DNA from: Lachnospiraceae bacterium
GTDB taxonomy: Bacteria > Bacillota > Clostridia > Lachnospirales > Lachnospiraceae
Direction of reading: 5' to 3'
Length of the DNA stretch: 64,000 bases
Assembly (NCBI GenBank): GCA_017624835.1
Contig: JAGAMG010000054.1
Span: forward strand, 51,799 to 115,798
The position numbers and the translations under genes are program-made. Positions 8,270 through 34,496 of the stretch are shown piece after piece. The notes beneath the pieces were generated by a model, which was given only the letters and a program-made list of their open reading frames with translations, made no database searches and was not told the DNA's origin. The number at the start of each line of letters is the position of its first letter. Within the stretch, counting starts at the first letter, position 1.

Positions 8270-10978
8270 ATGAATTATGGAAAAAAAGGTGTCCGCGCTA
8301 AGCAAAAGGCACTGAATTCTAAATCTATGAAGTGGGGACGAAAAATTGCCCTGACCATCGTAAGGGTATTTTTTATAGCAATTTTAGGACTTGGTATCTG
8401 CGGTGTTGCAGCAGGTTTGGGTGCCTACAAGGGTATCCTTGCCACCACTCCTCAGATTCGTTTAACGGATGTAGTGGCATCCGGTCAGGCAACCATTGTT
8501 TATGACCGTGAAGGGAATGAAATCGACCAATATGTCAGCACCAACTCCAACCGTATTGAGGTGGATATGGATCAGATTCCCGAAAATCTGGCACATGCCT
8601 TTGTTGCCATTGAGGATGAACGTTTCTACCAGCACAACGGTATTGACTTTAAAGGTATTCTCCGTGCAGGATTTACCTTTATTACCTCCGGTGGTGAAGA
8701 AGCTCAGGGTGCAAGTACCATTACCCAGCAGTTATTAAAAAATACCATCTTTACGGAATGGACCTCCGAGGGTGACAATGTTATCAAAAAGGTAAAACGT
8801 AAGGTGCAGGAGCAGTATCTGGCATTGGAAATTACCAAACGCTTTACCAAGGATGAGGTACTTTTGCGCTACATGAATGCCATCAATCTGGGACAGAATA
8901 CCCTAGGTGTGGAATCCGCTTCCCTGCGTTATTTCGGTAAGCACTGCAGTGAGCTGAATCTGTCAGAATGTGCGGTTATTGCCTGTATTACCCAGAACCC
9001 TTCCAAATACAATCCGCTCCGCCATCCGGAGGAGAACGTAAAACGTCGTGAAAAATGCTTGAACAACATGCTAAGGCTGGAATTTATTACCCAAGCAGAG
9101 TATGATGAAGCAATGGCTGATACGGAAGCAGTATACGAGCGTATCGGTTTATACGACACCGATTATCAAGTTGGTAATACCACCTCCGGCTCCTATTTCT
9201 CCGATGCTGTTTATGAGCAGGTTATGGCGGATTTGGTAAATAAAGCCGGTTACTCCGAATCACTGGCTGAAACCCTTATGACCTCCGGTGGTTTGCGTAT
9301 TGAATCCACCATGGATCCTACCATTCAGAAAATTATGGACGAGGAATTTGCCAACCCGGATAATTTCCCGGAAAACGTAAAATGGTATTTAAATTATGCC
9401 CTTACCATCAAGGATAAGGACGGGGAAAAACATAATTTCAGTAAGGAAAACATGATGACCTGGTTTAAGGCAAATCAGGACTCCAAGTTTAATCTGATTT
9501 TCTCCTCCCAGGATGCAGCAAACGAAGCCATTGTGGTTTATCGTACCACAATGCTACAGGAGTTGGGCGTAGCAGATAATGCGGATAATTATGAAGAAAG
9601 TATCTCCATGACTGCCCAGCCTCAGGCAGCAATGGTAATTGAAGAACAGGATACTGGCTATGTGGTAGCCATGGTAGGCGGTAGAGGTGCCAAGGAAGGA
9701 CGAAGAACCTTAAACCGTGCAACCTCCTCCAACCGTTCCCCCGGCTCCACCTTCAAGGTACTTGCTTCCTTTGCCCCTGCATTGGACAGTGCCGGCAAGA
9801 CTCTGGCAACGGTTTATAACGATGCTCCCTTTAATTACGATGATGGTCGTCCGGTAAGCAACTGGTACGATACCGGTTATCGAGGAATCAACTCCATCCG
9901 TAAAGCAATCGAGCAATCCTATAATATTATCGCAGTAAAGAACCAGACAGTTATTACGCCCCAGCTTGGATATGATTATTTATTGAACTTTGGATTTACT
10001 ACCCTTACAGATGGTGTAGAAATTAATGGAAAGATGTTTACTGATGTGCGCCAGCCCATTGCATTGGGTGGTTTAACCTACGGTGCTTCTCCTTACGAGT
10101 TAAACGCCGCCTACGCCGCCATTGCAAATAAGGGACTGTATATAAAGCCAAAGCTGTATACTAAGGTTACTGATGCTGATGGAAATGTTATTTTGGACAA
10201 TACTACTGCTGAAACCCGCCAGGTTATCAAGGAAACCACAGCATTCCTCTTAACAGATGCCATGGTGGATGTTGTTACTATGGGAACCGGTACCAGATGT
10301 AATTTCCGCAGCGGTATGGCAATCGCAGGAAAAACAGGTACCTCCTCCAATTATTGGGATTTATGGTTTTCCGGGTACACCCCCTATTATACAGCTACCA
10401 CCTGGAGCGGTTACGATAACAATGTAAGCATGAGCTCTAAGAGCAACAATAATGAACAGGCCATTTCCAAAACCCTATGGCATGTTATTATGGAACGTGT
10501 TCACGAAAACCTGCCCAACAAGCAGTTTAGTGTTCCGGAAGGCATTGTACAGGCAACGGTTTGCTCCCGTTCCGGTAAATTACCCATTCCTGGATTATGT
10601 GATGCACATCTTTTCACCGAGTACTTTGCAGACGGTACTGTACCTACGGATAGCTGTGATGTTCATTACCAGGGTTATGTTTGTCCTTATGACAATCTTC
10701 CTGCAAGCCCGGAATGTCCATTCTGTTATGAAGGAATTGCAGAGTTCCAGTTAACCGAGGATCCTGCTTTGGTTAGCGGCTCTACTACCATCATCGACAA
10801 CCCAGATGGTACACAGACTATCATCGTTCCCAATACTAGAACACAATGTCAGCATGATGCAGCCTTCTTTGCAAATCCTGATTATGAATCTGTTCTAAAC
10901 ACTCAGATTTGGGAAATGGAACAGTTAGGCATCCACATTCATTACGATGAGGATGACGATGAGGATGACGAAGACTAG
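8270..10978 (+). CDS. Class A penicillin-binding protein (transglycosylase/transpeptidase)
   Basis: A 902-residue bifunctional cell wall synthase. A basic cytoplasmic N-terminus is followed by one membrane anchor (about residues 22-50). The GT51 transglycosylase domain has EDERFYQHNGID near residue 115. The transpeptidase domain has STFK with catalytic Ser493, then SYN, and KTGT at Lys688. The tail after about 770 has several cysteines (CDAHLF, CPFCYEG) and ends in a run of Asp/Glu. The start at 8270 is chosen because AGAAAGGTG precedes it and the promoter lies just upstream. It polymerises and crosslinks peptidoglycan on the outer membrane face. The gene is monocistronic and ends at a strong hairpin. 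Confidence 0.95.
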   Translation: MNYGKKGVRAKQKALNSKSMKWGRKIALTIVRVFFIAILGLGICGVAAGLGAYKGILATTPQIRLTDVVASGQATIVYDREGNEIDQYVSTNSNRIEVDMDQIPENLAHAFVAIEDERFYQHNGIDFKGILRAGFTFITSGGEEAQGASTITQQLLKNTIFTEWTSEGDNVIKKVKRKVQEQYLALEITKRFTKDEVLLRYMNAINLGQNTLGVESASLRYFGKHCSELNLSECAVIACITQNPSKYNPLRHPEENVKRREKCLNNMLRLEFITQAEYDEAMADTEAVYERIGLYDTDYQVGNTTSGSYFSDAVYEQVMADLVNKAGYSESLAETLMTSGGLRIESTMDPTIQKIMDEEFANPDNFPENVKWYLNYALTIKDKDGEKHNFSKENMMTWFKANQDSKFNLIFSSQDAANEAIVVYRTTMLQELGVADNADNYEESISMTAQPQAAMVIEEQDTGYVVAMVGGRGAKEGRRTLNRATSSNRSPGSTFKVLASFAPALDSAGKTLATVYNDAPFNYDDGRPVSNWYDTGYRGINSIRKAIEQSYNIIAVKNQTVITPQLGYDYLLNFGFTTLTDGVEINGKMFTDVRQPIALGGLTYGASPYELNAAYAAIANKGLYIKPKLYTKVTDADGNVILDNTTAETRQVIKETTAFLLTDAMVDVVTMGTGTRCNFRSGMAIAGKTGTSSNYWDLWFSGYTPYYTATTWSGYDNNVSMSSKSNNNEQAISKTLWHVIMERVHENLPNKQFSVPEGIVQATVCSRSGKLPIPGLCDAHLFTEYFADGTVPTDSCDVHYQGYVCPYDNLPASPECPFCYEGIAEFQLTEDPALVSGSTTIIDNPDGTQTIIVPNTRTQCQHDAAFFANPDYESVLNTQIWEMEQLGIHIHYDEDDDEDDED

Positions 10979-10984
10979 TAGAAA

Positions 10985-11030
10985 AAAGAGCTTTTCAAGT
11001 AAATCACAACACTTGAAAAGCTCTTTCATT
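10985..11030. terminator. Bidirectional terminator after the PBP gene
   Basis: A 16-bp stem AAAGAGCTTTTCAAGT / ACTTGAAAAGCTCTTT with a 10-base loop lies between the convergent PBP gene and the small gene at 11040. A-rich and T-rich flanks fit use from both sides. Confidence 0.85.
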
Positions 11031-11039
11031 TCTTATTTA

Positions 11040-11318
11040 TTATATTCCTTTTATCTCTTTAATTCTCTCCTGCAAAGCCTCCACTCCGGTCTGTGCATTC
11101 CGAATAGCACGGCACTGCTTCTCAAAGGGTTCCTCAGGCATGTCTCCGTACAATTCCAGGTATTTCTTACCTATCTCCATATAATTCTTTTTGATAACCT
11201 CCTCGCAGGTAGAAATCTGACTTCTCAGATTCGCAATCTCAGCCACTTCCTTTGCCTTATCTGCTGCTTCTTTACCCTTTATGATTATGGTATCACCAAT
11301 TTTTTCAATAAAATCCAT
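11040..11318 (-). CDS. Small coiled-coil protein of unknown function
   Basis: A 92-residue protein starting MDFIEKIGDTI, with AAAAGGAG eight bases before this ATG; two upstream in-frame ATGs are less well placed. It is almost entirely charged and alpha-helical (KGKEAADKAKEVAEIANLRSQ, then a second helix pair). It resembles a common Clostridia type of short protein with a helical N-terminus, sometimes fused to a zinc ribbon, which is absent here. There is no signal peptide or membrane segment. It is convergent with the PBP gene. The function is unknown. Confidence 0.75.
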   Translation of the reverse strand: MDFIEKIGDTIIIKGKEAADKAKEVAEIANLRSQISTCEEVIKKNYMEIGKKYLELYGDMPEEPFEKQCRAIRNAQTGVEALQERIKEIKGI

Positions 11319-11425
11319 CGTACACATCTCCTTTTCCATTACTTTTTTTGATAATTTTATTGCTTATCCCCTCATTTTTTATAAGAATAGTATATTATTT
11401 TCACACTTTCAAAGCAAGCATTTCA

Positions 11426-11454
11426 TTGCATATTTTAGAAATTTGTGCTATACT
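11426..11454 (+). promoter_or_regulatory. Promoter for the 95-residue orphan gene
   Basis: TTGCAT (11426-11431), a 17-base spacer and an extended TGCTATACT -10 (ending 11454). It implies an untranslated leader of about 120 bases, which contains a small hairpin (GTCTGC / GCAGAC at about 11493-11508). The stretch 11319-11580 holds nothing else that was recognised. Confidence 0.6.
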
Positions 11455-11580
11455 AGGTGCTAAAGAAAAAACAAGCACCGGTACAAGCAAACAGTCTGCG
11501 AAGCAGACGATAAAGCATATAGTGCGAGTTTGCGAGTTTACATCATTACGATAAATATCATATCACGGGGGAAATTCCTT

Positions 11581-11868
11581 ATGCAATCATTGTATACTAC
11601 ATTAAAAGTAAATAATGAAATAGAATTGTGCGAAGTAGCCGATATGGAATGCAAAATGTTAATAGAGCGTGAGTTTTTATGGAATCACATTTCCTATTAT
11701 ATTCGTTGGCCCAAGCCATCATTATTTGGTCACAAGCGCAACACCTGTATCATTTGTGTACATGGTGATGCCAGTGAATTTGCAGAAGAAATTGTTCGGG
11801 CTATTTGTGACGAAAGCGGATACAAGGTACGTTTCCTTTTCAAAAAATCACAGAATACATACCTGTAA
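11581..11868 (+). CDS. Hypothetical protein, 95 residues
   Basis: The ATG at 11581 follows ACGGGGGAAA at good spacing; the same frame is open from 11530, but that ATG has no ribosome site. The protein begins MQSLYTTLKVNNEIEL and has no signal peptide, membrane segment or recognised motif. Its centre (CIICVHGDASEFAEEIVRAI) looks like a beta strand followed by a helix. It has its own promoter and its own terminator, so it is probably a real, independently expressed gene. The family is not recognised. Confidence 0.65.
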   Translation: MQSLYTTLKVNNEIELCEVADMECKMLIEREFLWNHISYYIRWPKPSLFGHKRNTCIICVHGDASEFAEEIVRAICDESGYKVRFLFKKSQNTYL

Positions 11869-11883
11869 TTTTACTTTTAAAAA

Positions 11884-11940
11884 AGCAAATAAATTAGGAG
11901 GTCGGTAACGATTTACCAGCCTCCCTTTTATTTGCCTTTT
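11884..11940. terminator. Long terminator hairpin
   Basis: GCAAATAAA ... GGAGG..GGTAA / TTACC..CCTCC ... TTTATTTGC forms a long interrupted stem, followed on the plus strand by CTTTTAT. It ends the plus-strand orphan gene and lies close to the end of the minus-strand galactan operon, so it may serve both. Confidence 0.75.
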
Positions 11941-11959
11941 ATGATATTGTCAAAACATT

Positions 11960-12178
11960 TTAATCAAAATCAAACTTGGTATAGCGTTTTGCCATAGCAC
12001 CATAACGGAATCTTACCATCTCGTTTTTCTCAAGTACATCCTTTTCATTTCCTCTGTACTGGCAACGAATGCAGTAAAATTCATCCGTTTCCTTCTGATA
12101 GAACATATCAATATCCAAATCCCTCATAAAACAGGAAGGACATCTATAATTTAATTTGCCTTTTCCAGCTTGAGCCAT
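11960..12178 (-). CDS. Small zinc-ribbon protein
   Basis: A 72-residue protein with two CxxC pairs, CPSCFMRD and CIRCQYRG, spaced as in a zinc ribbon, followed by a basic/aromatic tail. AAGGAGG lies 10 bases before the ATG. The start overlaps the last 28 bases of the upstream gene in another frame, so the two are probably translationally coupled. It is the last gene of the galactan operon. Zinc ribbons of this size often bind nucleic acid or a protein partner, but no specific function can be assigned. Confidence 0.8.
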   Translation of the reverse strand: MAQAGKGKLNYRCPSCFMRDLDIDMFYQKETDEFYCIRCQYRGNEKDVLEKNEMVRFRYGAMAKRYTKFDFD

Positions 12179-13989
12179 GTTGCAATTACCTCCTTATCTT
12201 TAACCTGTGCGGTATAGCCTAATGTAAACATAGGTGAGAAAGCATAACCTTCCTTCACATAACCAACTGCTGTCTCTGCGTTAGAACGCATGGAAACTGC
12301 CGTCTCAATCTGAGGCACAATTGCTCTGACCTCGTCCGCTCCTGCCATTTCAATATCACGGCACTTATATTCATAGGAAAGGGACTGAACCTCTTCACCC
12401 TTCTTTGCAGACAAGGTAATGCCTGTCATATCCTCGGAATATTCAGTAGTACCATAGCAAGCTACCATGTACTCATTGATTTCCACCTGTGCCTCAGGAT
12501 TGCTCATCTCTAAGATTCTTCTTTCAATCTTAATATCGGAGCTTCCTTCCTCAAAGGAAATCACGGACTGCAGCTTTACAGTTAAATCATAGAACTCAAT
12601 GTCTACAGGGTCTAAGGTCAATACTCTGGTATTACCCTCCTGGGAGAAATGAGCCTTAGTACGGCAGAGACATAAATCAACCTCTTCTCCATTGTATTTC
12701 AGCTTTGCACTTCTTACAGTACCTTCCCCTGCATAGTGTGTGAAGTATCCTGCACGGTACTTTTCCTGAATCAGGAAAGGATAGGAAGCATCGGTTACAT
12801 GCTTTGTACCAATACCTACAGGCCACTCCAGCTTTGCAGCATAAGGACGCAAATCAACAATGGCACCACCCTGATCCATATTCACACAGGCTCTCATGTA
12901 AGGGTCACAATACCAGAATAACTGCTTGTCAGAGCCATAAAGAATGTCTCTCCAAAGAGCACATTCCGGCTCAGTATAGGTCTTCTTCTGACGATAGTAA
13001 TCAGCAAACTCAGCCATGGTCATATCGGTGAGCTTACCCTGCTCCTTCAGTTCGCCATAGTACTTCATACCATCCTCATAGCTCTTTGCAAGCAATTCAT
13101 AGGGAGCTTCCCAGCGTCCCATCTTGTTCAACCAGCCGGGTCCAACAAACATCATATTGTATGCATAACCATTATTGTATTTTTCCAAATCACGATACTG
13201 GTCAATCAAATTGTAAAGATAAGGATAATCCCATGTTTCGGTATCATAAATCATACCACGAAGTACGTTCTGGGGATGAGTACCGAAGTTGGAACCATTA
13301 CCGTCATAGCATGCAAGCAAGTCTCTGGAAAGATGAGGAATTGCTACAATACCGCTATCCTCCGCTTCATTTGCTGCAGGTGCATGGCTGTTCTGCTTGG
13401 AAGGAATCCAAGGATTCCATGGACCACCATCCATAAAGGTATACCAGGAATTATTACAGGTATGATATGCCTTGGGACCTTCCTCCCAACAGGTAGCAAC
13501 TGCACATTTCACACTGGGATAAGCTTCCTTTACATAATTAATCAAATCCGCATCCATATAATAAGAACCGGTGGACTCAGGATAAAATCCAAAAATGTCA
13601 TAGAATTTTCCAAACACATCATCCACAATAGATTTCTTATCTTCCATGGAGAACATCCAGATACAGAAATCCTTGGTCTTATACTTCTCACGGAACTCCG
13701 TACAAGGAAGTCCAAGCAAAGACAATGCAATTTCATCACCATACTTCTCATGATGCTCCTTTGCAATCTGTACAGCCTCTTCATTAAATAAGGATGCATA
13801 GGTCATCTGAATGGTGGTCTTTAAACCATATTTGTGAGCCATTTCCTGCTGGAATTTGAAAATATCCAGGGACTCGGTCAAAAGTGCTTTTCTTCCGATG
13901 TCCTCTTCTTTTCCATGTCCTGTTACCTTTTCCGCATATTCAGGTACCATTTCAGGACGATGAATAATGTTTACGATAAATTTATCCAT
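12151..13989 (-). CDS. Large protein of unknown function in the galactan locus
   Basis: A 612-residue protein from MDKFIVNIIHRP; AGGAGAGG precedes this ATG, which is preferred over one 39 bases upstream. It has no signal peptide or membrane segment, so it is probably cytoplasmic. The first ~330 residues are rich in Trp/Tyr/His/Asp motifs (WNPWIPSKQN, YDTETWDYPY, FVGPGWLNKMGRW), and the last ~250 look beta-rich. That layout, a catalytic-barrel-like front with a beta-sandwich tail, is common in glycoside hydrolases and polysaccharide deacetylase-like proteins, but no family signature was recognised. It follows the GH53 gene by 62 bases in the same operon, so a role in galactan or oligosaccharide processing is an inference from context. 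Confidence 0.75.
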   Translation of the reverse strand: MDKFIVNIIHRPEMVPEYAEKVTGHGKEEDIGRKALLTESLDIFKFQQEMAHKYGLKTTIQMTYASLFNEEAVQIAKEHHEKYGDEIALSLLGLPCTEFREKYKTKDFCIWMFSMEDKKSIVDDVFGKFYDIFGFYPESTGSYYMDADLINYVKEAYPSVKCAVATCWEEGPKAYHTCNNSWYTFMDGGPWNPWIPSKQNSHAPAANEAEDSGIVAIPHLSRDLLACYDGNGSNFGTHPQNVLRGMIYDTETWDYPYLYNLIDQYRDLEKYNNGYAYNMMFVGPGWLNKMGRWEAPYELLAKSYEDGMKYYGELKEQGKLTDMTMAEFADYYRQKKTYTEPECALWRDILYGSDKQLFWYCDPYMRACVNMDQGGAIVDLRPYAAKLEWPVGIGTKHVTDASYPFLIQEKYRAGYFTHYAGEGTVRSAKLKYNGEEVDLCLCRTKAHFSQEGNTRVLTLDPVDIEFYDLTVKLQSVISFEEGSSDIKIERRILEMSNPEAQVEINEYMVACYGTTEYSEDMTGITLSAKKGEEVQSLSYEYKCRDIEMAGADEVRAIVPQIETAVSMRSNAETAVGYVKEGYAFSPMFTLGYTAQVKDKEVIATWLKLEKAN

Positions 13990-14051: not shown

Positions 14052-15161
14052 TTACATAAACTCCTTTATGACCTGCAGTGCCGGCAAGGCATTACCATCA
14101 TAATCAAATAATGCCTGATTTGCCCACTCATTACCACCCGGTCCGGGGTCTTTGATGTACTCCAGGGACTCCTTATTTGCCCAGCCACAGCCCGGAACAG
14201 GAATCCATGCAGGTTCCCAATAATAGAAACCTTTTCCCCTGCCATCCGGTATCTGCTTGATACGCTCCATGACTTCCTGCATAAAGTCAGCCTGCCCCTG
14301 AGGAGTCATAGGATATTCCACTGCTTCTGCCAGATGGGGCTTGGTAGCCATTCCCTTTCTCTCGCTGTCAGACAGTTTTTCGTACTCCTTGTAATCCTCC
14401 ATGGTAAATCCCATGGAAACCTCTGCCACAATAATATCCTTGTTGTATCTTGCCGCCAAATCATTCATATTATTGGTTAAATCATCAATGGTTCCATGCC
14501 AAAAGGGGTAATAGGACAATCCGATAATATCAAAATCCTCTCCTCCATTGGCAATATAGGCGTCAAACCACTCACGGCACCGGGCATTATTGCCACCGCA
14601 ATCCAAATGAAGCATTACCCGGCTATCCGGGGAAAACTCACGCACAGCCTTAACACCAGCACTGATAAATCTTGCAATATTCTCACTGCACTCCCACTTA
14701 CCATGGGGCCACATAAGACCGGCTGTAACCTCGTTTCCCACCTGCACCAGCTCCGGAAGCAAATTAAGCTCCTTTAACTTAAGCAGAAGCTCCCTTGTAT
14801 ACTCATATACCTTCTGCGTAAGTTCAGTGGCATCCAATCCTTCCCACTCCTTGGGAACATACTGTTTTCCCGGGTCTGCCCAGAAATCACTGTAATGTAA
14901 ATCCAGTAAATAGCTGTAACCAAGCTTTTTTCCTTCGGAAGCCAACTTAACCAATTTCTCAAAATCATTGGTTCCCGCACCATAAGGCTTCCCATCCACT
15001 GTATATGGATTGTTCCACAACCTGATACGAAGAGAATCCGCACCATATTTCTTCAAAATCTCAAGTGCCTCTCCCTCAACGCCACCATCATAATACTTAG
15101 CGCCAAGTTCTCTCTCCTCTATTAAAGTGGAAACATCCATACCCTTTATAAATTCTCTCAT
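14052..15161 (-). CDS. GH53 endo-beta-1,4-galactanase, intracellular
   Basis: A 369-residue glycoside hydrolase family 53 enzyme. Landmarks are KGMDVSTL at the start, LRIRLWNNPY, LLDLHYSDFWADPGKQ, QVGNE with the acid/base Glu144, and VAEVSMG with the nucleophile Glu247. The chain ends with ALPALQVIKEF. GH53 enzymes hydrolyse beta-1,4-galactan side chains of pectin. There is no signal peptide, so it should act in the cytoplasm on galacto-oligosaccharides brought in by the adjacent ABC importer. It lies 13 bases after the second permease gene. Confidence 0.95.
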   Translation of the reverse strand: MREFIKGMDVSTLIEERELGAKYYDGGVEGEALEILKKYGADSLRIRLWNNPYTVDGKPYGAGTNDFEKLVKLASEGKKLGYSYLLDLHYSDFWADPGKQYVPKEWEGLDATELTQKVYEYTRELLLKLKELNLLPELVQVGNEVTAGLMWPHGKWECSENIARFISAGVKAVREFSPDSRVMLHLDCGGNNARCREWFDAYIANGGEDFDIIGLSYYPFWHGTIDDLTNNMNDLAARYNKDIIVAEVSMGFTMEDYKEYEKLSDSERKGMATKPHLAEAVEYPMTPQGQADFMQEVMERIKQIPDGRGKGFYYWEPAWIPVPGCGWANKESLEYIKDPGPGGNEWANQALFDYDGNALPALQVIKEFM

Positions 15162-24055: not shown

Positions 24056-24427
24056 TTAATTTTCGTTAAAAATTGCTCCCACTCTTTTTACTAATTCCTC
24101 CGGCAGGAAGGGCTTTGTCACATAACCGACTGCCCCCAGCTTAACTGCTTCCATTACATTATCAGAATCAACAGATGCAGTCAGGAAAATTACGGGAATA
24201 TTTTGCATTTCCTCATTTTCTCTGATAATCTCAAAGGTTTTCAAGCCACTCATAATAGGCATTTCAATATCCAACAAAACCAAATCCACAGGCTCATCCC
24301 TTAAAAATAGCAGGCACTCCATCCCTGATTCAACTTTACACACCTCATAATCTTCCTTTTTTAGAATAAACTCTGCCATTCTTAAATTCATTACATCATC
24401 ATCAACCACTAATATTTTCTTAGCCAT
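24056..24427 (-). CDS. Single-domain response regulator (CheY-like)
   Basis: A 123-residue receiver domain without an output domain: ILVVDDD at the start, phospho-acceptor Asp in LVLLDIEMP, FLTAS with the conserved Thr, and YVTKPF with the conserved Lys. AAGGAGG precedes the ATG, which lies 20 bases after the hybrid-kinase stop. It is probably the diffusible end-point or shuttle of the phosphorelay run by the upstream double hybrid kinase. Confidence 0.95.
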   Translation of the reverse strand: MAKKILVVDDDVMNLRMAEFILKKEDYEVCKVESGMECLLFLRDEPVDLVLLDIEMPIMSGLKTFEIIRENEEMQNIPVIFLTASVDSDNVMEAVKLGAVGYVTKPFLPEELVKRVGAIFNEN

Positions 24428-24446: not shown

Positions 24447-27400
24447 TTACTCATGCATCCTGTATTCACGATCTTCATCCATCATTTCCAGCATTATCAT
24501 TGCAAATACAGGATCAAATTGTGTTCCCATCTCTTTTCTAATTTCTTCCTTGATAACGCTCTGTGGAAGTACATCTCGATAACTCCTTTTGGATGCCATT
24601 GCATCATAGGCATCTGCCACGCCAATGATTCTGGCAATTTCAGGAATTTCCTCTCCTAAAAGTCCATCCGGATAACCCTTTCCATTATACATCTCATGAT
24701 GCCAACGGGCTCCAATGGACAATCCCGGAATCTCTGTCATATTCGCAAGAATATCTGCACCAATTTGGGGATGGGATTTAATAGTGGCATATTCCTCATC
24801 CGTCAAATGGCTGGTTTTGTTGATAATATGACTGGGAATTCCAATTTTACCAATATCATGGAGTAGTCCGATATAGTATATATCCTCCTGTTCCTGGACA
24901 GTTTTACCTGCACGTCTTGCAATTTCTCTTGCATATTCTGCTACTCGCAGAGAATGTCCGTTAGTATACTTATCTTTGGCATCTATGGTGTTGGCAAGCG
25001 TCAGCATAATCTGCAAGGATAATCTTTCTACCTTTTCTCTTCTTACCTCTGCACTCCGGGTTTGCTTCTTTACCTCGCTTTGAAGATTTTTCTGCAAACG
25101 ATCAAGCTCCAGAATACGTTTCACACGCTGCAGCATAATATCCGCAATAAAAGGTTTGGTAATAAAATCCAAAGCGCCCTCGTTAAAGCCCTTTACCTCG
25201 GTGTCCCTGTCATTATCCGCCGTTAGGAAAATTACCGGAATCTCACTAAGATACTTATCCTGTTTCATTCTCCTGTTTACTTCAAATCCGTCCATTTCCG
25301 GCATATGTAAATCCAGCAGAATCAGATTGGGAATTTCTTTCTCCAAAAATTGCAATGCTTCTGCACCGGATTTTGCACAGTCCACACGGAACATTTCCTT
25401 TAGCAGCTTTTCTGCCACATGCAGATTCATGGGGTCATCATCCACCACAAGAATGTGTTCCTGTACAGTTTTTAAATTTGCCGGCCACGCATCCATTGTG
25501 ACTGCATTTTCTGTTTCATTCCGGATTTCCACTGCTGTTTCTGTCTCTAAATCTTTATTTTCCAACACATTTTTTATTTTTTCAAGCAATTTCTTATATT
25601 CTGCCATGACTCTGTCATGATTTGCCTGAACATCTGCAATTCGACCTTCCTTGGCTGCCATCTCCAATGCCTTGGCATCCTCTGAAACAGCAGTTGCCCC
25701 AATGGAAAGGGAGGTACTCTTTAAAGCATGCACCAAAATACGATATTTATCCCAGCTTTCCTCCCGGTAATTCTTGCAGATTTCCTCATATTTGTTGGTG
25801 GAAAGATAGGAACCTACCATTTCCCGATAGAACTCTTCACTATTACAGCAATATTCCATACCGGTAGCAGTATCCAAAAAGCTTATGCGTTCCAGAAAAC
25901 TCTTTTCTGTGTTTTTACTGTTTTCGGCATCCTTTGCTTCCATAACAGCTTCCGTCTCTTGAACAATTGCTGCTTCATTGCACGCCTTAGTTTCCACCAA
26001 TTCCTTGGGCAAATATTTTTTAATCATGGCAAGCAGCAATCTACTCTGTATGGGTTTAGAAAGATAATCCCTGAAACCTACCTTTAAATATTCCTCTCGT
26101 GCATCTCCCACTGCATTGGCTGTGAGTACAATTACCGGAACATTTTCACAAAGCTTTTCTTCCTTCATCCTCTGTAGGGCTTCCACACCATCCATAACCG
26201 GCATCATGTGATCCATCAATATCATGTGATAGGATTTCTTGCGCATCATTTCCAGAGCCTCTTGTCCGTTTACTCCGGTGTCAATCTGCATTCGGGTGCT
26301 TCTTAGCATGCCCTTCAACAAATCCAGATTCATCATATTATCATCAACCACTAATACCTTCACATCCGGTGCTTCAAATTTTTCATTCTCAATAGCTTCT
26401 ATTAAGCTAAAGCTATTGACTCTTTGATATTTTCCAATAGGAGAAGCATCCACAATATCCTGAGACAATTGGAAGGAAAAAGTACTTCCCTTACCAAATT
26501 CACTTTCCACCTGTAGGCTACTTCCCATAAAATGTAAGAGCCTTGTTACTATGGTCAGCCCCAACCCAATTCCTTGAATATTTCGTGTCTGTTGGTTATC
26601 AAAACGAATAAAGCTTTGAGATATTTTTTGAACATCCTCCTGCTTCATACCAATACCGGAATCCTTCACACAAACTATAAGGTTCCCCCGATTATCGGTC
26701 TCCTGCTTCCAATGCAATGCCACCTCTACATAACCTTCATTTGTATATTTTACTCCATTGGATATCAAATTGTCCATAATCTGAGTAAGACGCATGGCAT
26801 CTCCCAACAAACGTTGGGGAATTTGTTCATCCACTGCTATCCGAAGCTCGAGCCCCTTCTTCTCGATATTATATTCTGCATAACTAAATATATCCTGTAA
26901 AACCTCCGGCATGGAGTAGGGTTCTTTTCTCAGCAGCAAATCCTTTCTTTCCAGATCCGTAAAATCCAGAATATCATTTACCAAAGACAATAAGGTTCTG
27001 CCGGCAGACTGCACATTTAAAGCATACTCTGCTGTCTGACTTTCCCGACTCTCCTTTATTATCATTTCGTTATAACCTAATATAGCATTAATAGGAGTCC
27101 TTATTTCGTGGGACATATTTGTAAGGAAATCACTCTTTGCTCTATTAGCACTCATAATCTGCTTTTTCTGCTTCTCGTAGACATAAGTCTGATATTTAAA
27201 AATCAGTCCGAAAATACAGGTCACAATAATCATGGACTGTATCAAATCCACATAAGCTGCTGCATTTCCTTCAATGGGAATAACCCATTCCGGATGCAGC
27301 ATTTCTGCCAAAATACATGCCATTATTGCAATCACATTCAATGAATATACAATAAAACATAAACTTCCTTTTAAAATCAGCCATGAGAAAATCATTCCCA

Positions 27401-29975
27401 AAACCATCCATATGGGCATACCGGAATACATTCCCCCATTTGCAAAATACATAACAGGGAAGATGACCGTATTTGCTACCAATGTCAATATAAGTGCTGC
27501 TAACTGTGGCTTTTTCTTCCCATTAGCAATCCATAGAGAAGCACCAACCACCGCAATCAATACCCCTGTGACTATTATAGCTCCCATGCTAAATCCAAGC
27601 AAAATACTTATTAACAAAGAAACGATGCCACCTACAAATGCCGCCATAAGAATCAGATTCAAAAGCTTATGTTGAATATCCATATCCTCTTTAATCAGAT
27701 TTCCGGTTAGCCGATTCATTTTGTCCCAAAGAGTCCCGGCATCCTTTCTCAATGTTTCAACTCTTTTTGTTTCTGCCTTTATGGTTTCTGTCCCGGCATC
27801 CGCCTGGGATTTTTTTGCAGGATATATTTTCTCTTCTACTTGCGCAGGCTTCAATGCTACACTGTCATTCTCCGCACTTTGTATTTTTTCTTGGGGTAAA
27901 TACTTCCGTAAAAGTTCTTCCAGCTTCTCAGCCACAATGGGCTTGCTCAAATAATCATCAAAGCCCTCTGCAAGATACATTTCCCGCACACCCAATATAG
28001 CATTGGCAGTCAATGCAATGGTAGGCGTATCCTTACACAAGCTGTTTTCCAAAGCATTTATCCGCTTCAGGGTTTCAATACCATCCATCTCCGGCATCAT
28101 ATGATCCAGCAAAATTACATCAAAATGCTTTTTACAAACCAATTCAAGTACTTTTTCTCCACTGTTACAACAGGTAATTTGTAGTTTTGTTTTCTTTAAC
28201 AGCTTCTCAGCCACAAACAAATTCATTTCATTGTCATCAACAATCAATACGTTTCCATCCGGCGCCACAAAGCTTTCGGTATATACCTTCAAGGATTGCA
28301 CATATTCACGGAAGCGGTCCTCAAAATTGCCAATGCATTCCATACCCATTACTTTTTGAGGCAGGAAAATGGTAAAGGTGGAACCCTCTCCGTATTCACT
28401 CTCTACTTCCATACGACCTTTCATCAAGGTTACCATCTTTGAAGTGATGGCAAGTCCAAGACCTGTTCCTTCTACCTTACGATTTTCCTTAAGGTCAAGA
28501 CGTTCAAAGCTTCCAAAGAGCTTTGCCATATCCTCCTTGCGGATACCAATTCCCGTATCCACAACAGAAATTTTCATTAACAGGCTTCCCTCTGACATCA
28601 TTTCCTTTTCTACATGCAGAGTTACACTGCCTTCCTTGGTATATTTTACGGCATTATTTAAGATATTTACCATTACCTGACGAATGCGTACCTCATCACC
28701 ATACAGCTTATCCGGCAGACCTTCATCAATTTTCATATGAAAGGCAATATTTTTTTGCTTTGCCTTCACCTGAATCATATTTACTACATCGTTCAAAACC
28801 CCACTGAGGGTATAATTATCCTCCACAATTTCCATCTTGCCCGCTTCAATCTTGGACAAATCCAAAATATCATTGATTAGGGAAAGCAGGGTTTTACTGG
28901 CACTTTGAATATTTACCGCATATTCCTTAATCTCCTCATCTTGGCATTCCCGGAGAATCATTTCATTCATACCCATAACTGCATTGATGGGAGTACGGAT
29001 TTCATGGGACATACTGGCAAGGAAATCACTTTTTGCCTTATTGGCAGAATCTGCAATCAGCTTAGCCTGACGCAGTTCATCACTTTCCCTTGCCTTTTCC
29101 TCTGCTCCAAACAAAAATGCCATACCGATTGCCAAAAGCAGCAATAGTAAGCCAAACACCCATAAAATCAATGTCAAAACATAGAATAGACCTTCCTCTG
29201 CTAGCTTTTGCGGAACCGAACCCACTACTACAAAATCATAATCCTGAAGCTCTGCCACAAAAAGATATTGAGAATTTTCCTTTTCCTTATATAGCGCACA
29301 GGCTGCTGTGGAAATATTCATTTGTTCATTGATAACAGAAAAGGTCTGAAGAACTTCTTCTTTTGCAAAGAAGTCCAGATCCTCATCCTTCCAATCCTTA
29401 AAAGGTACTACAATGAGCTCATTATTGGTAGCTATGAGCACTCTTCCCATTTCATTGTAACAGGTCATTCCATATTTCTGCCTGAGTAATTCCTCTTCCA
29501 CCAACTTATACAATACATACTTTACATTGCCATTGTGATAAATGGGCACTGTAAATAACAAACCGATTCCCTTTTTATAGCTTATGGCTTTGTTTCCGCG
29601 AAAGGATTCCTGTATGCCGGAAAAATCAACTACCTGTAAGGGTTCCCCATGAACAGCATGTCCTCCCAATTCCAAAACTCCCCAATTTACCTTTACACCA
29701 TCCTTGTCTGCCATACTTAACAACGCATCTACATCCGCTGTCTCGCTTTCTATGTACCAGGCAATATTCTCCAAGTTTTGCAGCTCTGCATTAAAGATTT
29801 CCTCTGCCAAATCTGCCAAAGCCTTTGCCTGTTGCGTCATCTGATTCTGAGCATAATCCTGCAAAAGCGTTTGCAGCCTTGCTTCCATCAAAACGCCCAC
29901 AATCCCTAAAACCACCACAAAGCTTGCAAGTATAATAAAAATTTTTGTTCTGCCTTTTTTCAGCTTATCCCTCAT
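24447..29975 (-). CDS. Giant double hybrid histidine kinase with HPt, third receiver and HD-GYP
   Basis: An 1842-residue multi-domain sensor. In order: membrane helix (12-32), extracellular Cache-like sensor (33-262), helix (263-289), HisKA with His324 (MSHEIRTPIN), HATPase (GTGLGLAI), receiver 1 with Asp624. Next comes a second membrane domain of about six helices (770-926), HisKA with His956, HATPase (GIGLGLTI) and receiver 2 with Asp1255. The chain ends with HPt His1416 (VHALKSTSL), receiver 3 with Asp1555, and HD-GYP with His1706-Asp1707 and HHEMYNGKGYP. All key residues look intact, so it may run a phosphorelay and hydrolyse cyclic di-GMP. It resembles two hybrid kinases fused to an REC-HD-GYP regulator. 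Its start overlaps the upstream BMP gene by 11 bases; GAGGGTG precedes the ATG. Confidence 0.96.
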   Translation of the reverse strand: MRDKLKKGRTKIFIILASFVVVLGIVGVLMEARLQTLLQDYAQNQMTQQAKALADLAEEIFNAELQNLENIAWYIESETADVDALLSMADKDGVKVNWGVLELGGHAVHGEPLQVVDFSGIQESFRGNKAISYKKGIGLLFTVPIYHNGNVKYVLYKLVEEELLRQKYGMTCYNEMGRVLIATNNELIVVPFKDWKDEDLDFFAKEEVLQTFSVINEQMNISTAACALYKEKENSQYLFVAELQDYDFVVVGSVPQKLAEEGLFYVLTLILWVFGLLLLLLAIGMAFLFGAEEKARESDELRQAKLIADSANKAKSDFLASMSHEIRTPINAVMGMNEMILRECQDEEIKEYAVNIQSASKTLLSLINDILDLSKIEAGKMEIVEDNYTLSGVLNDVVNMIQVKAKQKNIAFHMKIDEGLPDKLYGDEVRIRQVMVNILNNAVKYTKEGSVTLHVEKEMMSEGSLLMKISVVDTGIGIRKEDMAKLFGSFERLDLKENRKVEGTGLGLAITSKMVTLMKGRMEVESEYGEGSTFTIFLPQKVMGMECIGNFEDRFREYVQSLKVYTESFVAPDGNVLIVDDNEMNLFVAEKLLKKTKLQITCCNSGEKVLELVCKKHFDVILLDHMMPEMDGIETLKRINALENSLCKDTPTIALTANAILGVREMYLAEGFDDYLSKPIVAEKLEELLRKYLPQEKIQSAENDSVALKPAQVEEKIYPAKKSQADAGTETIKAETKRVETLRKDAGTLWDKMNRLTGNLIKEDMDIQHKLLNLILMAAFVGGIVSLLISILLGFSMGAIIVTGVLIAVVGASLWIANGKKKPQLAALILTLVANTVIFPVMYFANGGMYSGMPIWMVLGMIFSWLILKGSLCFIVYSLNVIAIMACILAEMLHPEWVIPIEGNAAAYVDLIQSMIIVTCIFGLIFKYQTYVYEKQKKQIMSANRAKSDFLTNMSHEIRTPINAILGYNEMIIKESRESQTAEYALNVQSAGRTLLSLVNDILDFTDLERKDLLLRKEPYSMPEVLQDIFSYAEYNIEKKGLELRIAVDEQIPQRLLGDAMRLTQIMDNLISNGVKYTNEGYVEVALHWKQETDNRGNLIVCVKDSGIGMKQEDVQKISQSFIRFDNQQTRNIQGIGLGLTIVTRLLHFMGSSLQVESEFGKGSTFSFQLSQDIVDASPIGKYQRVNSFSLIEAIENEKFEAPDVKVLVVDDNMMNLDLLKGMLRSTRMQIDTGVNGQEALEMMRKKSYHMILMDHMMPVMDGVEALQRMKEEKLCENVPVIVLTANAVGDAREEYLKVGFRDYLSKPIQSRLLLAMIKKYLPKELVETKACNEAAIVQETEAVMEAKDAENSKNTEKSFLERISFLDTATGMEYCCNSEEFYREMVGSYLSTNKYEEICKNYREESWDKYRILVHALKSTSLSIGATAVSEDAKALEMAAKEGRIADVQANHDRVMAEYKKLLEKIKNVLENKDLETETAVEIRNETENAVTMDAWPANLKTVQEHILVVDDDPMNLHVAEKLLKEMFRVDCAKSGAEALQFLEKEIPNLILLDLHMPEMDGFEVNRRMKQDKYLSEIPVIFLTADNDRDTEVKGFNEGALDFITKPFIADIMLQRVKRILELDRLQKNLQSEVKKQTRSAEVRREKVERLSLQIMLTLANTIDAKDKYTNGHSLRVAEYAREIARRAGKTVQEQEDIYYIGLLHDIGKIGIPSHIINKTSHLTDEEYATIKSHPQIGADILANMTEIPGLSIGARWHHEMYNGKGYPDGLLGEEIPEIARIIGVADAYDAMASKRSYRDVLPQSVIKEEIRKEMGTQFDPVFAMIMLEMMDEDREYRMHE

Positions 29976-31062
29976 AAAATCTTACACCCTCGACAAACCA
30001 ATCAAAATGCTCCAACAACTGCTCATCACTGATGGTTTCCTTTTCTCCACATCTCATAGCGCCTTCATTATCATATATCACTCCGGAAAAAACATCCTTT
30101 CCGGACAAAAACTCCGCTTTCGCTTTTTCCACTTCCTGCTTAATTTCCTCAGTAACCTCTCCGGAATAAGCAGACAAATCCACCGCCTCTACTTCCATAC
30201 CTATCCAATAATTATTCTTCACATTTGCCTTTCCTACCAGAAATTCTCTGATAATCTGTTCATAAACCAATTCCCAATGACAAATCACGGAAGTAAGGCA
30301 ATTCTCCGAGTATCCCTCTAAAGCCTCATGATAGCCTATGGAATAAACCTTCGCTGCTTCCGCTGCCGCAATCACATTGGTCTGATTTTGATGATAGGTC
30401 AACACATCACATTTTTCCTCTTCCATCAAAGTATTAGCGGTCCGAACCTCTTTTTCCTTATTATCCCATTCTCCGGTCCAGGTTACCACCACTTCTGCTG
30501 TGGGATTGACTCTTTTCACTCCCAGAGTAAATGCATTAATACCGCGATTCACCTCGTTATTTTCCATTGCCGCCACATATCCTATGGCGTTACTTTCCGT
30601 TTTCATACCGGCTACAATTCCGGCAAGATATCTGGCCTGATACATTCTGGCAAAATATGAGGTCATATTTGTATCATGATACTCTGAGGAATTCACATAA
30701 AATACGATTTCAGGATATTCCTTTACCAGTTCCTGAATCTCCTCCGCATAACCATAGCTGGACAGAATAATCATACCTGCCCCCTCTTTTGCCAATTCTC
30801 TGATTGCCTCCTGACATTGTCCGGTAAATTCCTTTACATGTTCCTTTACCAAAAGCTGAGCTCCAAGCTTCTCACAAGCAGTCTTTGCTCCCTCATAATG
30901 TTTACCGTTCCAGCCCTTTTCCTCCATTCCACCGGATAAAACAAAGCCTATCCTAGGCACATCACTTTTCCCTTGTCTTCCCCCAAAAACAATCATCAGC
31001 ATTATGATAACCACAATACCTACAGCACCAACTGCCGTCAGAATCATCCTACGTTTATTCAT
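29965..31062 (-). CDS. BMP-family (PnrA/Med-like) binding protein, membrane-anchored
   Basis: A 365-residue protein with one N-terminal hydrophobic segment (about 8-27) and no lipobox cysteine. The basic membrane protein fold follows: PRIGFVLSGGMEEKGWNGKHYEGA, NEVNRGINAFTLGVKRVNP, VTWTGEWDN, DVLTYHQNQ. Family members bind nucleosides or similar ligands outside the cell. No permease or ATPase is nearby; the gene overlaps the hybrid kinase start, so a sensory role as ligand-binding partner of the kinase is likely. It is a paralogue of the preceding gene. GGAAGGAG precedes the ATG. Confidence 0.9.
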   Translation of the reverse strand: MNKRRMILTAVGAVGIVVIIMLMIVFGGRQGKSDVPRIGFVLSGGMEEKGWNGKHYEGAKTACEKLGAQLLVKEHVKEFTGQCQEAIRELAKEGAGMIILSSYGYAEEIQELVKEYPEIVFYVNSSEYHDTNMTSYFARMYQARYLAGIVAGMKTESNAIGYVAAMENNEVNRGINAFTLGVKRVNPTAEVVVTWTGEWDNKEKEVRTANTLMEEEKCDVLTYHQNQTNVIAAAEAAKVYSIGYHEALEGYSENCLTSVICHWELVYEQIIREFLVGKANVKNNYWIGMEVEAVDLSAYSGEVTEEIKQEVEKAKAEFLSGKDVFSGVIYDNEGAMRCGEKETISDEQLLEHFDWFVEGVRFYEG

Positions 31063-32149
31063 GTATCACGACTCCTTCCACATACCAGGTAAATTCATTT
31101 AACATGGTATTATCCGGGAGATTTTCTCCGTCTTCTACACGCATTTTTCCCTTATTATCTATAATCGGACCATAAAAAACATCAAAAACTCCGCTTTCCA
31201 GTTGTTCTCTGGCTTCTTCCACAGTTTCTGCTATTCCCGGCTTTACATTTCCTGTAAGCGGAGCCAGACCTACTACTCCGGTGGAAGTTCCTTCCCAATA
31301 ATTATCTCCCTCAAACTTTCCTTGCAAGCATTTTAAAATATAAGGCTCATAGTATTTCTCCCACTGCCATACCGGAGCCGTCAAAAAAGTATTAGGAAAG
31401 GTTTCACTGTTATCAATGTTATATCCAATGGACCAAATCCCCTTTTCCTCTGCCAATTCTAATACCTTATTGGAATCCGAATGCATGGTTATGACATCAA
31501 TCTTTTCATTGGATACTAATTTTTCAGCCGCCGTCCGTGTTGCAGCATCATCGTTCCAAGACTCACTCCATTCCACATGCACACGTGCATCCGGATTCAC
31601 AGATCTTACCCCCAAGGCAAATGCATTAATACCACGATTTACCTCTGAAATGGGAAATGCTGCCACATAACCGATTTCATTGGTTTCCGTCTGCATACCT
31701 GCCACTATACCGCTCAAATAACGCATTTGATAGATTCTCCCAAAATAAGTTGCCAAATTTCTGCTTTGCATAATACCACTTGCATGGAAAAAATATATAT
31801 CAGGATTTTCCTCCGCTTTTAACCGGATCCAGGTTCCGTAATCATAGGAATTACAAATAATGATTTCACAACCTTCCTCAATCAGCTCGTCTATCACAAC
31901 CTTGCATCCGTCATCCGTAGGAACATTTTCCTTATAAATCACATTCAGGTTCAGCACCTTGGCAGTTTTTTCCATTGCTTCATAATGGGATTGATTAAAG
32001 CTTTTATCATCACGGCTTCCAATCATAACCACTCCCACCTTGGTCTGCCTGCTGGTAACATCGGTATTTTCTTTCTTTCCCTGAATCAAAAATATTCCGG
32101 CAATTACTACTGCCAATATCACTACGATTACACTTACAATCTTTTTCAT
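31055..32149 (-). CDS. BMP-family (PnrA/Med-like) binding protein, first gene of the signalling operon
   Basis: 364 residues from MKKIVSVIVVIL; an in-frame ATG 24 bases upstream is possible but has a poorly spaced ribosome site. A signal-anchor helix without a lipobox is followed by the BMP fold: VGVVMIGSRDDKSFNQSHYEAM, ISEVNRGINAFALGVRSVNP, VHVEWSESWNDD, DVITMHSD. It overlaps the next BMP gene by 8 bases and is clearly related to it, so the pair arose by duplication. It probably detects a small ligand at the outer membrane face and signals through the kinase encoded downstream. Confidence 0.9.
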   Translation of the reverse strand: MKKIVSVIVVILAVVIAGIFLIQGKKENTDVTSRQTKVGVVMIGSRDDKSFNQSHYEAMEKTAKVLNLNVIYKENVPTDDGCKVVIDELIEEGCEIIICNSYDYGTWIRLKAEENPDIYFFHASGIMQSRNLATYFGRIYQMRYLSGIVAGMQTETNEIGYVAAFPISEVNRGINAFALGVRSVNPDARVHVEWSESWNDDAATRTAAEKLVSNEKIDVITMHSDSNKVLELAEEKGIWSIGYNIDNSETFPNTFLTAPVWQWEKYYEPYILKCLQGKFEGDNYWEGTSTGVVGLAPLTGNVKPGIAETVEEAREQLESGVFDVFYGPIIDNKGKMRVEDGENLPDNTMLNEFTWYVEGVVIHE

Positions 32150-32191
32150 TGGTATTTTCCGCCCCCAAAGCATTCCTTCTCTTAACTTAAC

Positions 32192-32322: not shown

Positions 32323-34449
32323 TTAGTAGAACCAGAGTGCCTCATCCTCAAGATACAACGCAAGCCACATGGAGCCCTCTCCACTTCCCGGCAGGGCTCC
32401 GCCCTGGTCGGCGTAGAAACCGAAGTTTGCCTTAGCACCATCGTCGAAGGAAATCGCACAGGAATACTCATTGTTCATCTCATAGTTGAAAGGACGGCCT
32501 TTTTCATCATCTGTCCAGAAGCATCCTCTGCCATCCTCCTCAAATGTAAGGAATCTCACTTCGTCGCTCGTTTCAAAGCTCACTTCACCGTACTTACTGT
32601 CAATAATCTCGTACAGAATATAATATTCTTTTGCTGTCAGAACCTTTGCATCGAATGGGGCAACCTTAAGGCGCGTCATGTCCAGGGCGAAGAACACATT
32701 GTCTTCTTGCGATTCTCCGGAATAATCGGGGTACTCGGTAATTTCGGACCAAATGCAGTCCTCAGTGATGATCCAATCGTTGAAAACAAGGCTGTTGCTC
32801 TCCCCATCGCCGAAGGTGCAGCGGTAGAAATAGAACTCCCCGTCGGAGTCATCATCCGCGCAGAAATAGCCGCCACTGCCGGAGCCGGTCATCAAGCAGT
32901 TGAGGAACATCTGCCTGCTCTGCGCGAAGAATAAATCCAGCGCGCCGTTCTCGCAGTCACGGATCGTGGAATCGAAACAGGACAGGAGCCCGCACTCGCT
33001 TGTACCGATGCCGTAGACGCCGCAGCCGTAAAGATCCAGCCCGGAGAGTACAATATTGCTGCATTGGCTAAAAAACAGCACGTCTCCTGCGCAGTCGCCG
33101 GTATCACTATGACCCATGGTGATATCCATCATGCCCATATCGGAGCAGTTTTCAAAACGCAAAACGTTGGCATAACGCGAATCCGTCACAATCTCGGTAT
33201 CCGCTGCCGAGCCGGACTCCGAGGCGATGGAAAGCCCGCTCACACCGGTAACGACGAGCTCCAGACCGTCGTATGTCTCGTCAATGCGTACAAATTCCCG
33301 GCTCTCATTAAAGTGCCCTCCCTCCCGCGCATAGAGTGCGGTAAGTGTATCGCTCAGGTTGTATCTGCCCGGTTCAAGCAGTATCTGCGTATCCGGAGCA
33401 ATGTTTTCGATCATCTGCTCCATATTGGAGACGTGCACGACCCGCTTACCTGCCACGACCTCAAACCGGCAGTCTTTTCCAATCACAAAGTTTCCATGGC
33501 CCTTCAATTCCTCATTGAGGCGCTGGCTCTCCCAGCGGTCAAAGGAACAGCGTTCAAATCGCGCTCCGCTTTCGCTGCCGCGGTAGTAGTAGGCGGGAAG
33601 AAAATTGTCTCCCATGTTTGCGGTGAAGGAGCAGCCTTCGAAGCGGGCAAAGGAGCCACTGAGACTCAGCATGTCGAAGCCGCCGTTGTCTCTGAAAGCG
33701 CAGCCCTCAAAGACGGCGTCGCTGCATAGGTACAGGTCAACAATGCCGTAGCTGCACTCCCGGATAATGCAGTCCTTGAGCGCAATGCCCACCGTATGAT
33801 CTGCCGTCACGCCGTAGGTGCCGCAGCCGTAGAGATCCAGGCCGGAGAGACTGATTTTTTGGCAGTAATCAAACGTCAGCACCGCGCCCTCGCAGTTTCC
33901 CTGCTCAATGGTATGCCCGAAGGTGATGTTCTCAATAACAATATCGGAACAATCGTTGAAGTAAAGCACATCGCAATAGCGAGGCTCCACCACAACCTCA
34001 ACCTTGCCGCCCTTTGCCCCACGAATCGTCAGACTCTCGACCTCATGGATTTCTGCCTGCCAACCATCATTGAAGCTGCGGGAAACATAGTCCGAGACAT
34101 TATCGGATGCCTCATGGAGATACTCCGTAAGGTTATAGGTGCCCGGCGCTAGCTCAATGACCACGCCCGGGGCGATGGCCTCCAGGAACTCGCCTGCCGT
34201 GCTGACATAGAGCACTTCGTCCTCAACCACGGATTCTTCCGGTGGATTGGTGGGCTCCGGCAGAATCGGCGCGGGAGCGGCAGATGTCGTTCCCGGCGTC
34301 TCGGCAATTGTCTGTCCCGGCACCTCGGCGATTGTCTGTCCCGGTGTCCCGGCAGGCTCTCCTTTGTCGGAAGCCTCACCGCATCCGGCAAGCGACACGA
34401 GCAGTAAAAGTGCCAGCACAAAGGCGCAAATGTTCAACTTCTTATTCAT
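32323..34449 (-). CDS. Lipoprotein with two beta-helix modules, GC-rich
   Basis: 708 residues from MNKKLNICAF, AAAAGGA upstream. The lipobox is SLAGCG, followed by a Pro/Gly/Thr-rich linker containing PGQTIAE repeats. Two tandem right-handed beta-helix modules follow (about 80-350 and 360-610), each with an APGTYNL-type entry, a CSDIVIENITFGH-like rung, DLYGCG, and short Cys/Phe-rich turns. A C-terminal beta domain follows. The modules resemble pectate-lyase-like or parallel-helix repeat proteins, but no catalytic signature was recognised. The coding sequence is visibly richer in G+C than its neighbours, including its paralogue upstream, which suggests transfer from another genome. Confidence 0.88.
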   Translation of the reverse strand: MNKKLNICAFVLALLLLVSLAGCGEASDKGEPAGTPGQTIAEVPGQTIAETPGTTSAAPAPILPEPTNPPEESVVEDEVLYVSTAGEFLEAIAPGVVIELAPGTYNLTEYLHEASDNVSDYVSRSFNDGWQAEIHEVESLTIRGAKGGKVEVVVEPRYCDVLYFNDCSDIVIENITFGHTIEQGNCEGAVLTFDYCQKISLSGLDLYGCGTYGVTADHTVGIALKDCIIRECSYGIVDLYLCSDAVFEGCAFRDNGGFDMLSLSGSFARFEGCSFTANMGDNFLPAYYYRGSESGARFERCSFDRWESQRLNEELKGHGNFVIGKDCRFEVVAGKRVVHVSNMEQMIENIAPDTQILLEPGRYNLSDTLTALYAREGGHFNESREFVRIDETYDGLELVVTGVSGLSIASESGSAADTEIVTDSRYANVLRFENCSDMGMMDITMGHSDTGDCAGDVLFFSQCSNIVLSGLDLYGCGVYGIGTSECGLLSCFDSTIRDCENGALDLFFAQSRQMFLNCLMTGSGSGGYFCADDDSDGEFYFYRCTFGDGESNSLVFNDWIITEDCIWSEITEYPDYSGESQEDNVFFALDMTRLKVAPFDAKVLTAKEYYILYEIIDSKYGEVSFETSDEVRFLTFEEDGRGCFWTDDEKGRPFNYEMNNEYSCAISFDDGAKANFGFYADQGGALPGSGEGSMWLALYLEDEALWFY

Positions 34450-34496
34450 ATTTCTCATTCCTTTTCCTATTTCCTCCAATGGATTGATTACTTTCC

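Follow-up and report, generated by a model that had tools for sequence, protein, structure and literature searches.

A 1842-codon histidine kinase gene in Lachnospiraceae that looks like a fusion of two tandem phosphorelay genes, and the binding-protein genes linked to its sensor

Introduction

Can one protein hold two histidine kinases, a shared phosphotransfer domain and a second-messenger enzyme, or does so long a gene point to an error in its sequence? A 64,000-nucleotide window from a Lachnospiraceae bacterium (the whole stretch of DNA analysed here, from contig JAGAMG010000054.1) raises this question with an open reading frame of 1842 codons on the reverse strand (24447–29975), which runs from ATG to TAA with no internal stops. 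The predicted chain ends in an HD-GYP domain; enzymes of this type usually break down a second messenger of bacteria. A preliminary description of the locus read the chain as a self-contained phosphorelay that may integrate two signals into second-messenger turnover. In the survey of Williams and Whitworth, hybrid kinases with two transmitters number 51 of 4650, and its passages on TodS and Red describe a second transmitter that acts as a phosphotransfer domain (PMC3018481). A two-core hybrid kinase is therefore unusual, not new.

Results

Domain content of the long chain

From its N terminus the frame encodes a first sensor (sensor 1), a kinase core (HK1, H324), a receiver (REC1, D624), a second sensor embedded in the membrane by about six helices (sensor 2), a second kinase core (HK2, H956), a second receiver (REC2, D1255), an HPt domain (H1416), a third receiver (REC3, D1555) and the HD-GYP domain (Table 1). 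Pfam matched two HisKA, two HATPase_c, three Response_reg and HD_5/HD domains above their cut-offs, and the Hpt profile fell slightly below its own (24.3 against 24.6 bits). Both kinase histidines stand in an HEIRTP motif, D624 and D1255 in DHMMP, D1555 in DLHMP and H1416 in HALKS, and both cores retain their ATPase G-boxes. At the C terminus, LLHDIGK begins at residue 1704 and GKGYP at residue 1765; alignment with the solved structures 5z7c and 4mcw shows the HD, HHE and GYP motifs and the conserved histidines to be present. Motifs and Pfam thus place the two cores, three receivers and HPt at exactly the residues given in the preliminary description, and its HD-GYP with intact motifs is borne out as well.

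As assembled, the chain is a two-transmitter hybrid kinase, with two full HisKA-HATPase cores and three receivers, and it holds every step of a His-Asp-His-Asp phosphorelay (H324/H956, D624/D1255, H1416, D1555), its Hpt match lying just below the Pfam cut-off. Hydropathy agrees with the two membrane sensor regions proposed before: peaks at residues 21 and 275 flank an outer domain of about 240 residues in sensor 1, and eight peaks within residues 776–917 read by eye as about six helices in sensor 2. Given an even helix count there, both kinases may face the cytoplasm. Codon-position GC is coding-like over most of the gene, including the junction at residues 661–780, and flat at residues 841–900, in the membrane part. 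REC1 also contains a 17-nt direct repeat (28200–28216 and 27921–27937, 279 bp apart).

Because the best solved match of the HD-GYP part by E-value is 5z7c, named a 3'3'-cGAMP phosphodiesterase, we regard the domain as a putative cyclic-dinucleotide phosphodiesterase and keep both c-di-GMP and 3'3'-cGAMP as candidate substrates. A profile search of the source genome returned 15 GGDEF and 13 HD_5 matches, so cyclic-dinucleotide signalling is likely present. Two other contigs of this genome (C35, locus L255, and C37, locus L254) carry further kinase, HPt and HD-GYP genes, among them a 1250-aa HK-REC-HPt-REC-HD-GYP chain and adjoining HK-REC-HPt and HD-GYP-REC genes.

Table 1. Features of the long gene and its neighbours, in window coordinates
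Feature	Position	Strand	Basis
BMP/PnrA-like binding protein a, 372 aa by mechanical start, although translation may really begin at a later in-frame ATG	31055..32173	(-)	Pfam Bmp 194.8 bits
BMP/PnrA-like binding protein b; shares 8 and 11 bp with the genes on either side	29965..31062	(-)	Pfam Bmp 164.2 bits
Sensor 1, residues 1-290: TM, extracytoplasmic domain of ~240 residues, TM	29106..29975	(-)	hydropathy; family alignment of 18
HK1 core, residues 305-545, H324, G-box 503	28341..29063	(-)	Pfam, motifs
REC1, residues 573-692, D624	27900..28259	(-)	Pfam, motifs
Linker, residues 693-752: traces of HPt1 and of the tail of gene A; HPt1 core absent	27720..27899	(-)	alignment with L009 and G183; three-frame translation
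Sensor 2, about six membrane helices, residues 753-938	27162..27719	(-)	hydropathy; relatives in samples
HK2 core, residues 939-1180, H956, G-box 1135	26436..27161	(-)	Pfam, motifs
REC2, residues 1205-1322, D1255	26010..26363	(-)	Pfam, motifs
HPt, residues 1375-1476, H1416; counterpart of gene B's HPt2	25548..25853	(-)	Pfam Hpt 24.3 bits; 61% to L009 HPt2, 43% to L009 HPt1
REC3, residues 1505-1625, D1555	25101..25463	(-)	Pfam, motifs
HD-GYP domain, residues 1630-1842, and stop	24447..25088	(-)	Pfam HD_5 104.7 bits; alignment with 5z7c and 4mcw
Free receiver REC4, 123 aa; best start 24427, 19 bp past the long gene's stop	24056..24427	(-)	anti-SD duplex -11.4; Response_reg 104.9 bits

Relatives with two genes in place of one

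Two relatives carry this content in two adjacent genes, A and B. In Lachnospiraceae RGIG8970 (JAGBBP010000021.1; locus L009) the operon order is BMP, BMP, A, B, REC. Its A (833 aa) has the order sensor 1-HK-REC-HPt and is 58% identical to the long protein over residues 1–700; its B (1077 aa, counted from the start that overlaps the stop of A) has the order helices-HK-REC-HPt-REC-HD-GYP and is 59% identical over residues 724–1840. Genome G183 shows the same five-gene order with A (820 aa) and B (892 aa) separate, and in each relative the split pair stands between two BMP genes and a free receiver. In both relatives the start of B overlaps the end of A, with B in phase 2 of A. Operon order and domains are shared with the locus of the long gene; the relatives differ in making two proteins, in an A that keeps its own HPt (HPt1) and, for G183, in a B that has a DHp in place of a full HK and lacks HATPase_c. 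The two-gene state, the two BMP genes upstream and the free receiver downstream had all escaped the preliminary description.

Alignment with these relatives shows HPt1 to be mostly gone from the long gene, its core being absent between REC1 and the helices. In L009, HPt1 and HPt2 are 43% identical, the median identity to all 174 HPt domains in our set being 37–38%. Similarity follows A's frame up to W750 and B's frame from residue 751, and the residues RKDAGTLW before the join (743–750), in A's frame, resemble the tail AKEGNTIW of A in G183. The join lies near 27728, at the old stop/start overlap, its exact place being estimated from a short alignment. Two changes are implied by this comparison, the loss of most of HPt1 and a frame change of about one base at the overlap. 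Since the offset A and B frames of the relatives are merged here by about one nucleotide, the gene should be either a recent fusion or a base error, and judged by these alignments it most likely is derived, a fusion of two tandem genes. B alone could still be made from internal starts close to residues 753 and 765, where the anti-SD values are −4.0 and −5.2, compared with −6.4 at the first start.

Real fusion or sequence error

As assembled, the fusion is known from one genome only, and we consider it probable that it is real. A base-level error is the rather unlikely alternative: there would truly be two genes, an A without HPt1 (sensor 1-HK1-REC1) and a B, coupled by their stop/start overlap, and an error of one base in a brief stretch of G at the join would have produced one chain. 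The phase of B in L009 and G183 and the change of frame after W750 accord with this, as does the assembled sequence itself, in which three-frame translation finds a stop in another frame overlapping the ATG of residue 753. No second fused chain turned up in our overlapping samples, which comprised 397 family, 138 genus and 392 order genomes. On the other side, if the reads were short, a single-base mistake among three consecutive G would be rare, and the frames elsewhere in the source genome look sound, with stop-free matches for 22/22 HisKA, 13/13 HD_5, 14/15 GGDEF and 60/60 listed ABC_tran; this test detects stops, not frame shifts as such, and the 60 listed ABC_tran matches are the stronger ones of 94, so that broken genes would sit among the other 34. 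The preliminary description had raised the possibility that two genes were joined, and this holds by half: relatives do have two genes, and the join here rests on about one base. A gross chimera of two unrelated loci is highly improbable and was rejected, for although the draft genome is in 55 contigs, L009 and G183 show the same arrangement of both halves together with the BMP genes and the free receiver, and the 17-nt pair inside REC1 is the only exact repeat of at least 14 nt in the gene.

Sensor 1 occurs in 20 of the 397 family-sample genomes, 12 of the 138 genus genomes and five of the 392 order genomes (own genome counted, samples overlapping), and relatives of sensor 2 in 65/397 and 50/138 of the family and genus samples. 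Three long open frames, G004:C50 (1809), G503:C16 (1816) and G104:C20 (1828), were fetched and proved to be separate neighbouring genes; besides the latter two, no further match in the samples lay in an open frame long enough for a fusion. We then compared 249 kinase chains from the fetched loci (longer than 300 aa, differing in their first 200 residues, cut copies counted): two H-boxes were found in the long gene alone, and two full HK profiles only in it and its cut copies. Two complete kinase cores thus occur only here among the fetched loci, and the other counter-case of the preliminary description, many proteins with the same architecture, was not encountered in them. Five chains (L041, L070, L075, L121 and L246) showed a short second DHp-like stretch in a profile scan, placed before a full core of HK-REC-HPt type; in L246, Pfam gives two HisKA matches with dCache_1 between them and one HATPase_c, the second ATPase being absent. 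L181 and L245 were rejected as two-HK chains, one core having been split into two hits. A search of open-licence papers by title or abstract start found no description of this domain order.

BMP genes accompany sensor-1 kinases

The closest solved relatives of the two BMP proteins are 6pi5 and 3s99 for protein a and 3s99 and 6pi5 for protein b, with Med (2hqb) and 7x0r ranking lower. Protein a has no Cys in its N-terminal 45–60 residues and is probably a membrane-anchored co-receptor. Further upstream lies a gene for a 718-aa protein with a right-handed beta-helix match and a mechanical TTG start (32323–34479, reverse strand).

Comparing kinase genes across the same loci, we found a BMP gene directly upstream of 41 of the 46 sensor-1 kinase genes with at least 1200 bp upstream (long gene included) and of none of the 154 other kinases, which gives these kinases the conserved neighbouring binding-protein gene of a binding-protein-coupled kinase. 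Of the five exceptions, one is in L025 and the others are four sensor-1 hybrid kinases that stand in tandem at L028:6356–18358 with no BMP gene directly upstream. Two BMP genes precede 20 of the 32 sensor-1 kinases with at least 2400 bp upstream. Counted from mechanical starts, 44 of 61 distinct BMP proteins have no Cys in their first 45–60 residues, so the majority do not resemble classical lipoproteins; the listed sequences start with a hydrophobic stretch. We infer that these proteins are dedicated co-receptors rather than transporter parts.

Sensor 1 of the long protein has no confident Pfam match. We do not claim it as an ordinary Cache domain: dCache_1 matches weakly in 4/18 members (best E 0.00036; the long protein itself 0.099), and comparison with the PhoR sensor 3cwf gave E 0.076.

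Pyrimidine and folate genes neighbour the split operons and are a possible hint of a nucleoside ligand. In L009, dihydroorotase-like and orotidine decarboxylase genes flank the operon (4508–5797 and 14217–15091), and in G183 (L229:9686–11067) thymidylate synthase and DHFR genes follow it. These genes were named by Pfam in L009 and G183; in 14 loci, the first 60 residues of the flanking genes, compared by eye, showed no common neighbour, so the hint is a lead only. The BMP link to sensor-1 kinases is more general than the fusion itself and is the part of this work most likely to last.

B-type genes, HPt placement and the HD-GYP neighbourhood

A B-type gene (HK-REC-HPt-REC-HD-GYP) lies in one stretch with a sensor-1 kinase in six cases: L009, L021, L022, L033, G183 and G308 (L231). 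The ATPase domain is absent from four of these six genes (G183, L021, L022 and L033), with the DHp His and the REC2 Asp kept in all four. Such a DHp would need a phosphoryl donor outside its own chain, A being the simplest candidate, and this suggests a B that relies on a partner kinase. In L021, L022 and L033, B (at about 10253–13160) has an HPt without its His, and a separate REC-HPt gene follows, with HALKSS in that of L021 and L022; we accordingly rejected these loci, where an A without HPt stands beside B, as a split copy of the long gene's layout. HPt placement is fluid among sensor-1 kinases: an HPt is borne by 26 of 32 complete chains (the long chain counted by its HPt2), and for four of the six others (L244, L021, L022 and L033) it lies in another gene of the same stretch.

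HD-GYP genes were found in 12 of 32 sensor-1 stretches of at least 7 kb (the long gene's included) and in 32 of 86 around other kinases, against a background that is high since the loci were partly chosen through HD-GYP-bearing matches. By subset, the counts for sensor-1 and other kinases were 5/16 and 19/66 in L009–L088 and 6/15 and 13/20 in L229–L262. With no enrichment, we rejected HD-GYP as a typical partner of sensor-1 kinases; the output is therefore particular to the layout of L009, G183 and the long gene, not to sensor-1 kinases generally. An HK1-HK2 heterodimer within the chain, suggested by DHp similarity, was likewise set aside: their DHp similarity of 58% is the best value for HK2 among 13 other cores of the set examined, and this is not special enough when the 91 pairs reach 66%.

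Discussion

The long chain shares features with several known systems. TorT-TorS and LuxP-LuxQ pair a binding protein with a hybrid kinase, and here too the gene for a binding protein immediately adjoins one for a hybrid kinase that has an extracytoplasmic domain; the differences are that these binding proteins are of the BMP/PnrA type, mostly without an N-terminal Cys, and that sensor 1 lacks a confident Pfam match. RpfG-type phosphodiesterases are REC-HD-GYP proteins, as is the C-terminal REC3-HD-GYP part, which, unlike them, is covalently joined to its phosphodonor. The transmitter-receiver-HPt order of the ArcB/EvgS type, named in PMC4321377, recurs in the relatives' gene A and in the HK2-REC2-HPt part; the long chain differs in carrying its own HD-GYP output and in having another kinase fused ahead of that part. 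According to the same source, TodS likewise has two transmitter cores with a receiver between them in one chain, but it has PAS sensors, no transmembrane regions and a separate output regulator, TodT; its passages on TodS name no HPt, second or third receiver or HD-GYP, all of which the long chain has (PMC4321377). With no PAS domain among its Pfam matches and with a fused HD-GYP, the long chain departs from the TodS type in sensor and output.

We tentatively favour, at close to an even chance, a recent fusion of two tandem phosphorelay genes in which both kinases converge on H1416 and REC3 switches the HD-GYP domain. Sensor 1, together with two membrane-anchored BMP co-receptors, would control HK1, and the multi-helix sensor would control HK2. 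H324 would pass its phosphoryl group to D624 and H956 to D1255, and both receivers would then pass it to H1416, the sole remaining HPt, so that the loss of HPt1 would have left the two branches sharing one phosphotransfer site. From H1416 the group would reach D1555, and REC3 would switch the HD-GYP phosphodiesterase in one direction or the other; H1416 probably also phosphorylates the free receiver REC4 as a second acceptor. Two inputs to one HD-GYP domain remain the best reading of the domain content, as first proposed, and the relay parts with intact motifs stand; 'self-contained' was too strong, given BMP genes upstream and a free receiver downstream. The HD-GYP comparison removed one argument for this mechanism, yet the mechanism does not rest on HD-GYP enrichment. 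Several findings speak against this explanation: at 43% identity between HPt1 and HPt2 in L009, REC1 may not suit HPt2; the fusion was not seen in a second genome of the samples, and its join is about one base, which an error could supply; B's HPt has no His in L021, L022 and L033, where a separate REC-HPt gene occurs; HD-GYP genes are not enriched near sensor-1 kinases; and internal starts could still yield B alone.

An unlikely alternative is a TodS-like linear relay in one chain, H324 to D624 to H956 to D1255 to H1416 to D1555, in which DHp2 would take the phosphoryl group from REC1. The second transmitter of TodS acts as a phosphotransfer domain and T2 of Red receives from R1, in the passages on these proteins (PMC3018481, PMC4321377); the ATPase-less B partners keep the phosphoacceptor His and Asp in 4/4 cases, and REC1 has lost its own HPt. 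HK2 here, however, retains HATPase_c and its G-box and so may be a kinase itself. Also unlikely is the most far-reaching reading, a six-acceptor H-D-H-D-H-D relay in one membrane protein, born by about one base, that would turn a BMP-sensed ligand and a membrane signal into cyclic-dinucleotide breakdown, with paired membrane-anchored BMP proteins and sensor-1 hybrid kinases as a widespread sensory system in gut Lachnospiraceae and their relatives.

The link between BMP genes and these kinases suggests that gut Lachnospiraceae and their relatives have a ligand-sensing system of this kind; BMP-coupled hybrid kinases were not found described by title or abstract start among open-licence papers. 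If the fusion is true, the long gene would show two converging relays just after joining, with one phosphotransfer domain already mostly lost, and would offer a natural test of why some relays stay split and others fuse. The split relatives, with or without HPt1 and the second ATPase, form a ready series for asking which steps matter.
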